From Polaribacter batillariae (lineage in GTDB: Bacteria > Bacteroidota > Bacteroidia > Flavobacteriales > Flavobacteriaceae): a stretch of DNA of 64,000 bases. The stretch spans positions 744,001 to 808,000 of the forward strand of contig NZ_CP071795.1 of assembly GCF_017498485.1 (NCBI RefSeq), given 5' to 3'. The position numbers were made by a program, and so were the translations under genes. The notes beneath the pieces were generated by a model. It was given only the letters and a program-made list of their open reading frames with translations, was not told the DNA's origin and made no database searches. This document shows, piece after piece, positions 28,708 to 32,761 of this stretch. Numbering within the stretch: the first letter of the stretch is position 1; the number at the start of each line of letters is the position of its first letter.

Positions 28708-29666
28708 ATGAACACCAAATTCTTATTCCTCTCGTTTCTTGCAATTCTATTGTTTCGCTGTAATGCCCCAAAAGATATTCAAATAGACGAACAAATGCTT
28801 TTAGAAAGTATTAAAATTTTGTCTCACGATTCTTTAGAAGGAAGAGGTTTTTCTAAAGTTGGAAACTACAAAGCACAAAAATTTATAGCCAAAAAGTTCG
28901 AAGAAATTGGTTTAGAAAAAATGGTTAGAGATTCGTACATTCAAAAATTTCCTTATACTTTCTCCGGAAAAAGAAGGTTAAAAATGTTTCCTATTTCTAA
29001 TCTTGAAAAAGAGGCAGAAAACATTCCTGACACCACGGTTATTGGAGGAAATGTAATTGGAAAAATTACTGGAAAAACAGACAAAACAATTGTAATCACG
29101 GGTCATTTAGATCATTTAGGTATTAAAAACGGACAAATTTACAATGGTGCAGATGACGATGCTTCTGGTACTGCTGCCTTATTCGCAATTGCTTCTTATT
29201 TCAAAAAACACAAACCAAATCACACCTTGGTTTTTGCTGCTGTAGATGCTGAAGAAATTGGTTCTTTAGGTGCAGATTTTTTCTTGAAAAACTACACTGA
29301 TAAAAAAATATTATTTTGAATATTAATATGGATATGATTGCACATAACGATTCTCTGGAGTTATATGCTTCTGGTTTGCATCATTATCCGCAATTAAAAA
29401 AACCCCTTCAAAATATAAAATCTCCTATAACTTTATTATTTGGTCATGACAACCCTGATGATAAAACTAAAGACGATTGGACATATTCTTCTGATCACAG
29501 AATTTTTCACAAAGAAAAAATTCCGTTTATTTATTTTGGTGTAGAAGACCATAAAGATTATCACAAACCTACAGACACTTTCGAAAATATCAACCAAGAT
29601 TTTTATGTAGATGCCGTAAAACTGATTATCAAAGCAATTGAAAATTATGATTCTTTTTTAGAATAA
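28708..29666 (+). pseudogene. M28 family zinc aminopeptidase, frameshifted
   Basis: A lipoprotein (lipobox LLFRC near residue 18) with an M28 peptidase domain split across two frames. The first frame, 28708-29319, carries metal ligands in TGHLDHLGI, NGADDDASGT and VDAEEIGSLGA. It stops at TGA 29317-29319. The next frame from about 29316 to 29666 continues as NINMDMIAHND and provides YSSDHRIFH and the C-terminal helix. One extra T in the TTTT run (29314-29317) would rejoin them as a single protein of about 319 residues. All expected zinc ligands are present, so this is either a very recent loss or a 1-base sequence error. Confidence 0.85.
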
Positions 29667-29710: not shown

Positions 29711-29773
29711 TGTCATCTAGGTGACACCTATATGTCACAATAAAAACAATTGTATATAAATATCTTTGTGACA
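29711..29773 (+). promoter_or_regulatory. Periodic TGTCA operator and -7 box of HTH gene
   Basis: Half-sites TGTCA (29711), TGACA (29722) and TGTCA (29733) alternate in orientation exactly 11 bp apart, giving two overlapping palindromes; a fourth, TGACA, is at 29769. The -7 box TATCTTTG lies at 29761-29768, 15 nt before the ATG. This looks like an autoregulatory operator for the XRE-type product of the next gene. Confidence 0.6.
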
Positions 29774-29783
29774 AATAAAAATT

Positions 29784-31094
29784 ATGGAAACACAAACAAT
29801 TGCAAAAAAATTAAAGTATCAAAGAAAGTTAAAAGGATATTCTCAAATAGAACTATCAGAAAAATCAAACGTCACAATTAGAACTATACAACGAATTGAA
29901 AAAGGAGATGTTACTCCTCATCTTCAAACCTTAAAATTATTAGCAGAGGCTTTAAATATAGGTGTAGAAGATATTTCTGTACTAAATAACCCAAAAGAAG
30001 AATCAATACAAAAAAAGTGGTTATTATTTATACATGGTTCTCCAATACTTGGTTTTATTTTTCCATTTACAGTTCTCTTTCCTTTATTTTTATGGATTCA
30101 TAAAAGAGAAGATAATTCCATTTATAATATTCATGCCATTAAAGTTATAAATTTTCAATTAAGCATTGCTTTAATACACATACTATCCTTTATCCTATTA
30201 CTAACAGTTCAAGGTTGGGGATTTTTATTTTTTATACTAATTATTCCAATTAATTTTCTTTTAATTATTTATAATATTTTTAAATCCATAACTACACAGA
30301 AGTGTTTTTACCCTTTATCAATTCCTTTTTTAAACATCAAAAAAAATAGTACAACAACAATTTTAAAATCATTTTTAATCTTATTAATTACAATTAGTTG
30401 TACTACAAATAAAAAAAACAAATTACAAAAACTTACTGAATATGAGGGACTATATGAATATAAAGAACAAACAACTTTAAATATAGTCGCTTCTGGTTTA
30501 GACACTACTTTATACGCTATATTAGACGATGCAAAATATCCTTTAAAACATATTAAGAAAGATAGTTTTTTAAATATAAGAAAGATACCTGTTGTTTTTA
30601 AAAGAGATAAAAATAAAAGTGTTATAGGTTACGAATCTGAAAGTGAGTATTTTAAACTTTTAAGTACCAAAATTAAAAAGCCAGAAATGTTTCCAAGAAA
30701 AGAGCTATTTAAAAAACCAGAAAAATATAAATACAATATCCCTTCAGATAATAATGACGGATTAAAAGTGGGAAATTTATTGGATGAGTTCTCTAACCCT
30801 GAACTTATTATAGAAATGGTAAAAGAAACCATAAAAGGAAATTTTCCTGAAGTTCACAGTATTTTAATATACAAAAATGATAAATTAGTACTTGAAGAAT
30901 ATTTTTATGGTTATGATAAAAACACCCAACATCAATTAAGGTCTGCAAGCAAACCTTTTATTGGAACATTACTCGGAATTGCAATTGATAAAGGTTTTAT
31001 AAAAGATGAAAAACAAAAATTATTACCCTATTTTTTTGATACATACAAAAACATTAAAAACATAGATGCAAAAAAAAAAAGGAAATTACCCTAG
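29784..31094 (+). CDS. HTH-DUF4870-serine hydrolase fusion, N-terminal part (broken)
   Basis: 436 residues. Residues 1-66 are an XRE-type HTH (GYSQIELSEKSNVTIRTIQRIEKG). Residues 70-175 resemble a DUF4870 membrane block with three hydrophobic segments. A further hydrophobic stretch ends in LLITISCTTNKK, which looks like the lipoprotein signal of a once-separate gene now fused in frame. A linker follows, then a beta-lactamase/penicillin-binding-like serine hydrolase with S387-x-x-K390 in LRSASKPFIG. The frame is lost in an 11-A tract (31070-31080); the hydrolase continues one frame over and is then split by IS982. The HTH-membrane half could still act as a regulator. Confidence 0.75.
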   Translation: METQTIAKKLKYQRKLKGYSQIELSEKSNVTIRTIQRIEKGDVTPHLQTLKLLAEALNIGVEDISVLNNPKEESIQKKWLLFIHGSPILGFIFPFTVLFPLFLWIHKREDNSIYNIHAIKVINFQLSIALIHILSFILLLTVQGWGFLFFILIIPINFLLIIYNIFKSITTQKCFYPLSIPFLNIKKNSTTTILKSFLILLITISCTTNKKNKLQKLTEYEGLYEYKEQTTLNIVASGLDTTLYAILDDAKYPLKHIKKDSFLNIRKIPVVFKRDKNKSVIGYESESEYFKLLSTKIKKPEMFPRKELFKKPEKYKYNIPSDNNDGLKVGNLLDEFSNPELIIEMVKETIKGNFPEVHSILIYKNDKLVLEEYFYGYDKNTQHQLRSASKPFIGTLLGIAIDKGFIKDEKQKLLPYFFDTYKNIKNIDAKKKRKLP

Positions 31095-31486
31095 AAAATA
31101 TTCTAACCTATAAACATGGAATGGATTGCGAAAACAACAATTCAGAAAGTAAAGGAAATGAATTAAAAATGATGGAAAGCAAAGACTGGGTAAAACATAC
31201 TTTAGATTTACCAATGGTTGCAAAACCAGGTGAATACTCTTCATATTGTTCAGGTTGTTCTTTAATTTTAGGAAAATTAATAGAAATTACAACAAACCAA
31301 AAAATAGAAAATTTTGCTAAAAAAAATTTATTTTATCCTATGGGAATAACAAACTATAGTTGGGTTTTTGAACCAAATCAAGCAAGTAAAACAACATTTA
31401 ATCAAAAATACATTACCTCTAGAGATTTAATAAAATTAGCAAAAATGTACAAGGATGGTGGAAAATGGAATGACCAACAAATAGTA
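31082..31486 (+). pseudogene. Serine hydrolase, middle fragment
   Basis: Continues the hydrolase of the previous entry after a 1-nt loss in the A tract, beginning EITLENILTYKHGMDC. It includes the SSYCSGCSLILGKLIE block, where beta-lactamase-type hydrolases have their Tyr/Ser-x-Asn motif (Y-S/C here), and ends with GGKWNDQQIV at the IS982 insertion point. Confidence 0.75.
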
Positions 31487-32495
31487 ACCTGAGTTCGATT
31501 AATAAATTGTCAACTGATTAGACTTTACAGTCTGATATTTTATAGCAGGTTTTTTTGGTAAAAAGCTATATGCAATAAGACCTGCGATTATGTTTGACAA
31601 GAAATTAGTAAAACTTCTATGTCTAGAATGTTCAATTTGACAAATATTTTTGAGTTCGTCATTTACGGTTTCAATAACAGAGCGTTTACGCAGTAAAATT
31701 TTATCACTCATTGTCATTAAAGAATTCTTCATATTGTTTTTAATATGAGTAATTAAATGCAATCCATCAGCAAAAAGTAACTGCATTAAATCTTTTCCAA
31801 CATAACCTTTGTCCGCATATAACTTACCATAAATTTTATCTAAAAAAGACTTCTTTTTTAATGGCGTTCTATCATCAACATTAGCTTGGGTTATGCAGAA
31901 GTTTAGGATTTCACCTTTATCATTTATAACGATATGCAATTTAAAGCCATGGAACCATCCTATAGTGGATTTTCCAGTGGTTGCAATGCCTTTAAATACT
32001 TTATTATTCTTAATTCGTTTGGGGCTGCAAACTCTAACAGGTGTAGAATCTACAAAAGAAATACCCGTAGAATTACCTAAACAACATGTCTTTAAAAATA
32101 AAGTCATTGGCATGAGGTTTTGCTGCATGAGTTCTGTAAATCTATTGTATGAAACTGTAGCTGGGAAATCATCTTGCATATGCTTTTGCAAGTAATACAC
32201 GTAAAAGTGTTTAAAGGTCCTAAAACCACTAAGCTGAAACAAAATGGTAATGGTAATTACCTCGCTATTTGACATAACACTGGGACGTTTTGATGGATTG
32301 CCTAAAAGGTGTTTACTGACTATTTGGTCATATTCTTTACAAAATTCATCAACAAGACAGAAAATTTCAGTAATTTTAGAGTAGATTATCATAGATAGAT
32401 TTTTAGATTAATAAATTGAAATTCAATACTTTAATTTACTGAAAATCTATCTTTTTTACTAGAAAAAAATGCCTAAATTTTAATCGAACTCAGGT
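31487..32495 (+). mobile_element. IS982-family insertion sequence
   Basis: 1009 bp bounded by perfect 16-bp inverted repeats: ACCTGAGTTCGATTAA at 31487-31502 and its complement at 32480-32495. TAGTA flanks both sides (31482-31486 and 32496-32500), a 5-bp target duplication; removing the element and one copy restores the host reading frame (QQIVSKKW). It carries one transposase gene on the minus strand. The intact ends, intact transposase and clean duplication indicate recent transposition. Confidence 0.93.
31499..32392 (-). CDS. IS982 family transposase
   Basis: 297 residues, full length for IS982. The DDE residues are visible: Asp in [10 protein letters not shown], Asp in LYADKGYVG and Glu in [14 protein letters not shown]. 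It begins [21 protein letters not shown] and contains the family's [14 protein letters not shown] stretch. It fills nearly the whole element and appears intact. Confidence 0.93.
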
Positions 32496-32761
32496 TAGTA
32501 TCTAAAAAGTGGATAGATAAAACTTTCAAAACACAAAAAGGTGATTATGGTTATTTATGGGAACATAAATATTTTCTAATAAATGGTAAAGAATATAATT
32601 CTTATTTAGCTTCTGGTAATGGAGGTCAAAAAATAAATATTTGGCCAGAATTAGATATGATTACTGTTTTTACAGGTGGGAACTACAACTCTTTTGAACT
32701 CTATAAAAAAACTACACCTCCAAATAAAATGATACCCGAATATATTTTAAAGGCACTTTAA
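32496..32761 (+). pseudogene. Serine hydrolase, C-terminal fragment beyond IS982
   Basis: The third part of the hydrolase: VSKKWIDKTFKTQKG onward to TAA at 32759-32761. It has the LASGNGGQKINIWPELD block, the Lys/His-Thr-Gly-like box position of class C-like hydrolases. It is in the same frame as the middle fragment once the IS and one TAGTA copy are removed. Confidence 0.75.

Follow-up and report, generated by a model that had tools for sequence, protein, structure and literature searches.

In a 64,000-nucleotide stretch of the Polaribacter batillariae genome (contig NZ_CP071795.1, positions 744,001 to 808,000; the window), the gene between positions 29,784 and 32,761 is a broken copy of a fused gene. 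In its intact relatives, a helix-turn-helix (HTH) domain of the XRE type, a DUF4870 membrane domain, and an S12-type serine hydrolase (PF00144) follow one another in a single open reading frame (ORF). Based on a comparison of these relatives, we consider it fairly probable that the gene is a self-regulated cassette, in which one promoter and one operator would serve a polyprotein of regulator and enzyme that is cut by signal peptidase. The interest lies in the gene family, as a presumably portable self-regulated cassette for an envelope enzyme, and not in the pseudogene of the window. A literature search on DUF4870 and on fusions of HTH, beta-lactamase, and Tic20 domains found no description of the HTH-DUF4870-hydrolase architecture; this kind of gene is widespread and apparently undescribed. 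An operator that can be predicted exactly and occurs about once per genome, together with a swappable enzyme, offers a directly testable handle on DUF4870 and on the role of the envelope hydrolases.

Occurrence of the Fused Gene

A profile of the HTH-DUF4870 part was searched over 397 genomes of the family. It matched 60 of them, which contain 25 intact open frames of ~583-675 amino acids (aa) in 24 genomes, ~23 unfused forms of ~190-204 aa, and weaker matches. The GTDB collection yielded 231 relatives, and the locus counts given below rest on the best 79. A continuous HTH-DUF4870-hydrolase ORF was present at 76 of these 79 loci; two of the 76 (L125 and L152) leave the contig before the stop codon, and one, from a Saprospiraceae metagenome-assembled genome (L164), is cut at aa 322, ahead of the hydrolase. 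The three exceptions are a fusion to a DJ-1/PfpI domain (L161), a gene standing alone in Aquimarina algiphila (L104), and the locus of Alteromonas hispanica (L159), where regulator and hydrolase are encoded by separate genes, the latter with an N-terminal signal of its own. The fused loci belong to Flavobacteriaceae, Cytophagales (Marivirga, Xanthovirga), Gammaproteobacteria (Alteromonas, Pseudidiomarina), and the Saprospiraceae genome mentioned above. The genome of the same genus (G013, L010/L094) carries an intact 653-aa gene in one frame, at the same locus and with the same neighbours. It is 99% identical to the window copy over the first 429 aa, and in the 425 codons compared, synonymous changes number 10 and non-synonymous ones 4.

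Two features would be expected if the fusion had arisen only locally, as a pseudogene artefact from a pair of adjacent genes: the window copy is disrupted at two points, and split neighbours exist elsewhere (L159 and a further case, L017). We give this explanation virtually no chance, and the intact homologues rule it out: the same-genus gene is one ORF, 25 long ORFs are intact among the 397 genomes, and the great majority of the best loci are fused. Judged by these ORFs, the fusion is real and old, since it is intact in the same genus and recurs across Bacteroidota and Gammaproteobacteria. A first-pass annotation of this DNA had proposed the in-frame fusion of HTH, DUF4870, and a serine hydrolase with an SASK motif, and the Pfam matches together with the intact three-part homologues bear it out; two separate genes in relatives, which would have spoken for a merely local fusion, do occur in the split cases named above. 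The same annotation had suggested looking for a hydrolase, transporter, or cell-wall gene beside the homologues. When the homologous loci were compared, no conserved neighbour gene that could serve as a clue to function was found outside the genus, so the cassette is a self-contained unit.

A 416-aa ORF of another genome (L033:1483-2733, G051) encodes in one chain an XRE HTH, a single membrane helix, and a domain of the Amidase_3 family (N-acetylmuramoyl-L-alanine amidase). It is apparently a second, independent fusion of an HTH, a membrane segment, and a cell-wall hydrolase.

The Joint Between Regulator and Hydrolase

The joint was analyzed in the 76 fused homologues. The segment between DUF4870 and the hydrolase is poorly conserved, yet its basic start and hydrophobic core are kept, and the net charge in the 14 residues ahead of the core has a mean of +3.9 and never falls below +2. 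A strict PROSITE-type lipobox was found at 42 of the 76 joints and nowhere else in those proteins (0/76). When N or T was also allowed at position -1, the relaxed lipobox was found at 55 joints, compared with 1.2 (at most 6) in shuffled segments. Most of the remaining joints have type-I signal-peptidase sites, such as AVA-Q, ASA-D, GFA-Q, and YSQ. On the tree, the state switches between lipobox and type-I site up to 9 times, a number based on a rough classification in which a few Cys-bearing members are mislabelled. In the window, the joint reads KKNSTTTILKSFLILLITISC; it consists of a basic n-region (KKN...K), the hydrophobic stretch FLILLITI, and the lipobox ITIS-C, with the codon of Cys206 at 30399-30401.

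This segment had been taken at first for a vestigial lipoprotein signal. Because the cleavage motif is retained in nearly all homologues, it does not look vestigial: the joint is most likely a working signal peptide and not a scar, and from this we infer the cleavage itself. The alternation of two modes of cleavage would point to selection for cleavage, since a plain membrane helix would not leave such a pattern.

The topology agrees with this. The AlphaFold2 model of a homologue (L096; predicted local distance difference test score, pLDDT, 88.7) has helices at 70-89, 96-108, 113-142, and 146-172, and a joint of low confidence at 187-209. These helices agree with the architecture described for DUF4870/HOTT (PMC11628618), in which two spans are combined with a re-entrant helix and a charged loop. 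If the HTH is cytoplasmic, a chain of this topology would be back in the cytoplasm before the signal, and the signal would point outwards. The model of a fused protein of the second type described below (L160), built from 4 sequences, had a pLDDT of 32.7 and was not used.

An internal translation start could also give two proteins, if ribosomes started at a second site as well and produced a hydrolase that begins with a signal peptide. Some members do have an ATG just ahead of the hydrophobic segment (for instance L011, MSIKAATLLVIGMLSFTSC), and the split genes of A. hispanica show that the separate arrangement exists. When Met residues were counted on 72 joints, 36 had none within a 28-residue stretch around the signal, and neither the window copy nor its intact sister has one nearby. 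Internal initiation is thus not general, as half of the members lack a Met near the signal. The frame is also preserved, though a separate start would not require it, and we regard this explanation as very unlikely.

Operator and Promoter

Ahead of all 79 loci, we found the motif aaaTGACA-N6-TGACA-N6-TGTCG: 57 sites were exact, 21 had one mismatch, and 1 had two, over 15 specified bases. In a shuffled control of 1580 upstream sequences, there was one match at two mismatches and none better. The motif is followed by TAnnTTTG, the -7 promoter consensus of Bacteroidota (PMC7366714), at a spacing of exactly 23 nucleotides (nt) in 73 of the 79 loci. Four of the six exceptions are gammaproteobacterial (L145, L147, L156, L159) and have further TGTC half-sites instead; in L122, an earlier weak match masks the box at 23 nt, which is an effect of pattern matching, and in L160 the spacing is 22 nt. 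The operator in front of the gene, which had been proposed from the window alone as autoregulatory, is therefore a real and conserved element, its role being predicted.

The same operator, within two mismatches, precedes 24 of 27 unfused HTH-DUF4870 genes linked to CPBP genes. The first of the three others (L040) is explained by the operon order operator-CPBP-HTH in G183, in the second (L049, G143) an exact match lies farther upstream, and the third (L041) has the CPBP gene in front. A single operator was present in 19 of 20 genomes tested, while G160 alone has a second, weak one. Among the 397 genomes, 29 of the 31 exact occurrences lie directly ahead of an HTH-DUF4870 gene or operon. The other two adjoin no recognisable HTH-DUF4870 gene (L213 in G095; L216 in G141, at a contig edge). 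A regulon search found no targets past the gene or operon itself, save these two and one site with one mismatch in G160 (L194). As each genome has essentially one such operator, standing directly before the gene or operon, there is strong evidence that HTH-DUF4870 is a dedicated autoregulator, predicted to bind a private operator.

Two fused genes, one of each type described below (L071 and L072), lie ~35 kb from each other in the genome G407. The type II copy (L072:4900-5020) keeps the layout and the 23-nt spacing, and its half-sites read TGGCG/TGGCA/TGACG, suggesting that the altered half-sites may insulate the two paralogues from each other.

The predicted operator lies upstream of the promoter, a position that would be no less compatible with activation than with repression. 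The trinucleotide TTG was found at the -33 distance in 0 of 73 spacers. An absent -33 box was considered as proof of activation and dropped, because no -33 motif is identifiable in F. johnsoniae at all (PMC7366714).

Hydrolase Types and Exchange of the Enzyme

In the majority of the fused proteins (type I, ~585 aa), the hydrolase is of the S12 type, and its closest relatives in sequence and fold are 2qmi (the Pyrococcus penicillin-binding protein homologue Pab87), Flp (4gdn), the R61 DD-peptidase, and D-aminopeptidase. Type II proteins (~655 aa) occur in the window, G013, G342/G159, G407, and G234 (L160), and their hydrolase is closest to Lsa45 and 6-aminohexanoate-dimer hydrolase. The active-site residues S281, K284, and Y375 are invariant in 56 type I homologues, and SASK or SATK is present in every type II member; by its motifs, the S12-type hydrolase is predicted to be catalytically complete.

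In the tree of the HTH-DUF4870 part, type II and the DJ-1 form make up one clade nested in type I (support of 99 in the Shimodaira-Hasegawa-like approximate likelihood ratio test, SH-aLRT), and the CPBP-linked forms make up another (support 100). The great length of the outgroup branch makes the root of this tree uncertain. These clades indicate that the regulator was kept while its output was exchanged: on the sequences, the hydrolase type appears to have been replaced at least once, and the whole enzyme too, by DJ-1/PfpI. As the same regulator and operator control CPBP proteases in a sister clade, the output would be a swappable envelope-acting hydrolase, a description that by family assignment covers both the S12 hydrolases and the CPBP intramembrane proteases.

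The DJ-1 form was found in Subsaximicrobium wynnwilliamsii (L161:6001-7578), where an HTH-DUF4870 part with the same operator has a DJ-1/PfpI domain in the place of the hydrolase. In G031, a separate type II-like hydrolase lies directly upstream of a type I fused gene (L011:2-664, the same as L158), and the contig begins inside it.

Proposed Mechanism

We propose that the chain inserts with its HTH in the cytoplasm, and that DUF4870, with its re-entrant helix and two spans, would return it to the cytoplasm. The internal signal would then export the hydrolase, and signal peptidase II (signal peptidase I in some lineages) would cut it off. The hydrolase would become an envelope lipoprotein or a free protein, and the HTH-DUF4870 half would remain in the inner membrane, bind its own operator, and set the amount of itself and of the enzyme upon a membrane or envelope cue.

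The first-pass annotation had instead compared the gene to BlaR-type sensing. In such a sensor, the chain would stay uncut, the periplasmic hydrolase would be a ligand-binding or acylatable sensor, and the signal would pass through DUF4870 to the cytoplasmic HTH. The conserved one-chain architecture, its retention across a long evolutionary distance, and an operator ahead of the gene itself would all suit this reading. Several observations argue against it, and we consider it unlikely. Signal-peptidase sites are conserved at the joint, alternating between lipobox and type I, and cleavage there would part the hydrolase from the regulator. Regulator and operator persist where the hydrolase has given way to an unrelated NylB-like type, to DJ-1/PfpI, or to a CPBP protein encoded separately. 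The S-x-x-K and Tyr of the hydrolase never vary, just as in S12 enzymes that are active. Finally, in Pfam searches no M56 metalloprotease domain was matched at E <= 1 in the window or in the intact homologues, and the C-terminal domain is PF00144, with no PF00905 sensor domain found. At the loci compared, there is also no separate repressor gene of the BlaI/MecI type, the DNA-binding domain being in the same ORF. Membership of the BlaR1/MecR1 group was therefore ruled out by domain content.

Several points weigh against the proposed self-regulated, cleaved cassette. There is no clear gain from the fusion if cleavage separates the two halves in every case, and the uncut chain may have some function. 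One joint (L113) has lost its Cys, and three others (L145, L147, L153) fall outside simple patterns. The window operator differs from the consensus by two half-site changes. The position of the operator upstream of the promoter could go with activation or with repression, and the lack of a -33 TTTG is hardly informative in Flavobacteria. The window gene is itself broken, so that its function is deduced from homologues which are mostly type I, while the window copy is type II.

A more specific form of the cassette would be a one-gene feedback device, in which the activity of the regulator depends on the export and cutting of its own passenger. We think this rather unlikely; if true, the device would read the capacity for export or lipoprotein maturation, or envelope damage, molecule by molecule and adjust the supply of enzyme through its private operator.

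As for a role, CPBP proteins have been suggested to give immunity to antimicrobial peptides, and a microcystin-degrading cassette pairs the CPBP-family protease MlrA with the beta-lactamase-family serine protease MlrB (PMC6914704). By analogy with these two cases, the outputs might share a protective role in the removal of membrane-active or D-amino-acid peptides, which is a reasonable guess of rather low probability. Anti-phage defence was considered and rejected: PADLOC matched the HTH only and nothing on the enzyme or the CPBP proteins.

The Copy in the Window

The features of the window copy are listed in Table 1. The HTH_3 and DUF4870 matches support the cytoplasmic HTH and the membrane block that had been predicted, with the DUF4870 profile matched end to end (PF09685 positions 1-107 of 107, 65.6 bits, cut-off 25). 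The DUF3471-like stretch also occurs in the type II members L094, L079, L072, and L160. The start of PF00144, at aa 359-405 of the 436-aa ORF, is weak by itself (18 bits), and the final residues of this ORF are out of frame beyond the A-run. The double disruption by an A-tract indel and an IS982 element, already noted in the first-pass annotation, was confirmed.

Table 1. Positions of the features of the broken fused gene and its upstream region in the window.
Feature	Position	Strand	Basis
Predicted 27-bp operator TGTCA-N6-TGACA-N6-TGTCA, 11-bp repeat phase	29711..29737	+	Family consensus TGACA-N6-TGACA-N6-TGTCG
Predicted -7 promoter box TATCTTTG (TAnnTTTG), with a spacing of exactly 23 nt from the operator	29761..29768	+	Conserved spacing
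First in-frame fragment of the fused gene, 436 aa	29784..31094	+	ORF list and Pfam
HTH_3 (XRE type) DNA-binding domain, aa 10-63	29811..29972	+	Pfam PF01381, E 5e-14, 52.5 bits
DUF4870/HOTT (Tic20-like) membrane domain, aa 76-183	30009..30332	+	PF09685, E 5e-18
Predicted internal signal peptide at the joint	30339..30401	+	Lipobox or type-I signal-peptidase site at the same joint in nearly all fused homologues
DUF3471-like extra domain, aa 215-280, weak	30426..30623	+	Pfam, E 0.025, below cut-off
N-terminal part of the serine hydrolase (PF00144, NylB/6-aminohexanoate-dimer-hydrolase-like) with S387-A-S-K390	30858..30998	+	Pfam
A-run, point of frame loss	31070..31080	+	Comparison with the intact same-genus copy L094
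Second, out-of-frame hydrolase fragment, ending just within the insertion sequence	31073..31492	+	PF00144, E 4e-9
IS982-family insertion sequence inside the hydrolase	31487..32495	-	Transposase, inverted repeats, target duplication, copy number
C-terminal hydrolase tail beyond the insertion sequence (GNGGQ motif)	32498..32761	+	Comparison with the L010 ORF

The transposase ORF of the insertion sequence (31499-32392) matches NF033520 (E 6e-80). The element has terminal inverted repeats and is flanked by a 5-bp target duplication, TAGTA, at 31482-31486 and 32496-32500. In the 3.89-Mb genome, 10 copies match the whole 1002-base query without a difference, a further 5 are full-length and near-identical, and fragments are also present. 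These 15 near-identical full-length copies point to a recent burst of IS982. The peptidase gene just upstream (window 28708-29666) is a second frameshifted gene, split into ORFs of 203 aa and 116 aa; its counterpart in G013 is a single intact 319-aa ORF in the same place (L010:2926-3885). The window gene is a dead, degenerate copy of the conserved cassette and, as a pseudogene, is ordinary.

Comparison with Known Systems

The membrane domain of the window gene is a clear member of DUF4870/HOTT, sharing its re-entrant helix, charged loop, and two spans. DUF4870 is a common membrane domain, and the only bacterial members studied so far are magnetosome proteins (MamF-like), not regulators; the rest are called uncharacterised (PMC11628618). 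The hydrolase has the fold and the S-x-x-K and Y motifs of S12-type serine hydrolases (PF00144). These are normally stand-alone secreted enzymes or lipoproteins with their own N-terminal signal, whereas here the enzyme is made behind a regulator. The joint resembles the signal of bacterial lipoproteins, with a putative lipobox after a basic, hydrophobic segment, and differs from it in being internal and not N-terminal. The likeness to XRE-type regulators consists of the HTH_3 match and the conserved candidate operator. The inserted element matches the IS982 family in its transposase, terminal inverted repeats, target duplication, and multiple copies.

BlaR1 has a cytoplasmic M56 zinc protease and a class-D-like PF00905 sensor, and works with a separate DNA-binding protein, BlaI. 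The likeness to BlaR1/MecR1 is that a membrane protein ties an extracytoplasmic fold of the penicillin-recognising type to the control of gene expression. Here, in contrast, HTH and enzyme are on one chain, the domain is PF00144/S12, and a predicted cleavable export signal lies between them. The membrane-bound one-component regulators ToxR and CadC also tether a DNA-binding domain to the inner membrane. They have a winged-helix domain, a single span, and an uncleaved periplasmic sensor, whereas the present family has an XRE HTH, a multi-span Tic20-like domain, and an enzyme that is likely released.

To our knowledge, bacterial polyproteins that signal peptidase cuts at an internal signal are rare, and none is known to us in which an exported enzyme is fused to a DNA-binding regulator. 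In mechanism, the closest known parallel would be FbcH, the cytochrome b/c1 polyprotein of Bradyrhizobium, in which a multi-span protein and an exported protein are made as one chain and parted by signal peptidase at an internal signal. FbcH gives two subunits of one respiratory complex and has no self-regulation, whereas the cassette described here would give a transcription factor and a hydrolase.

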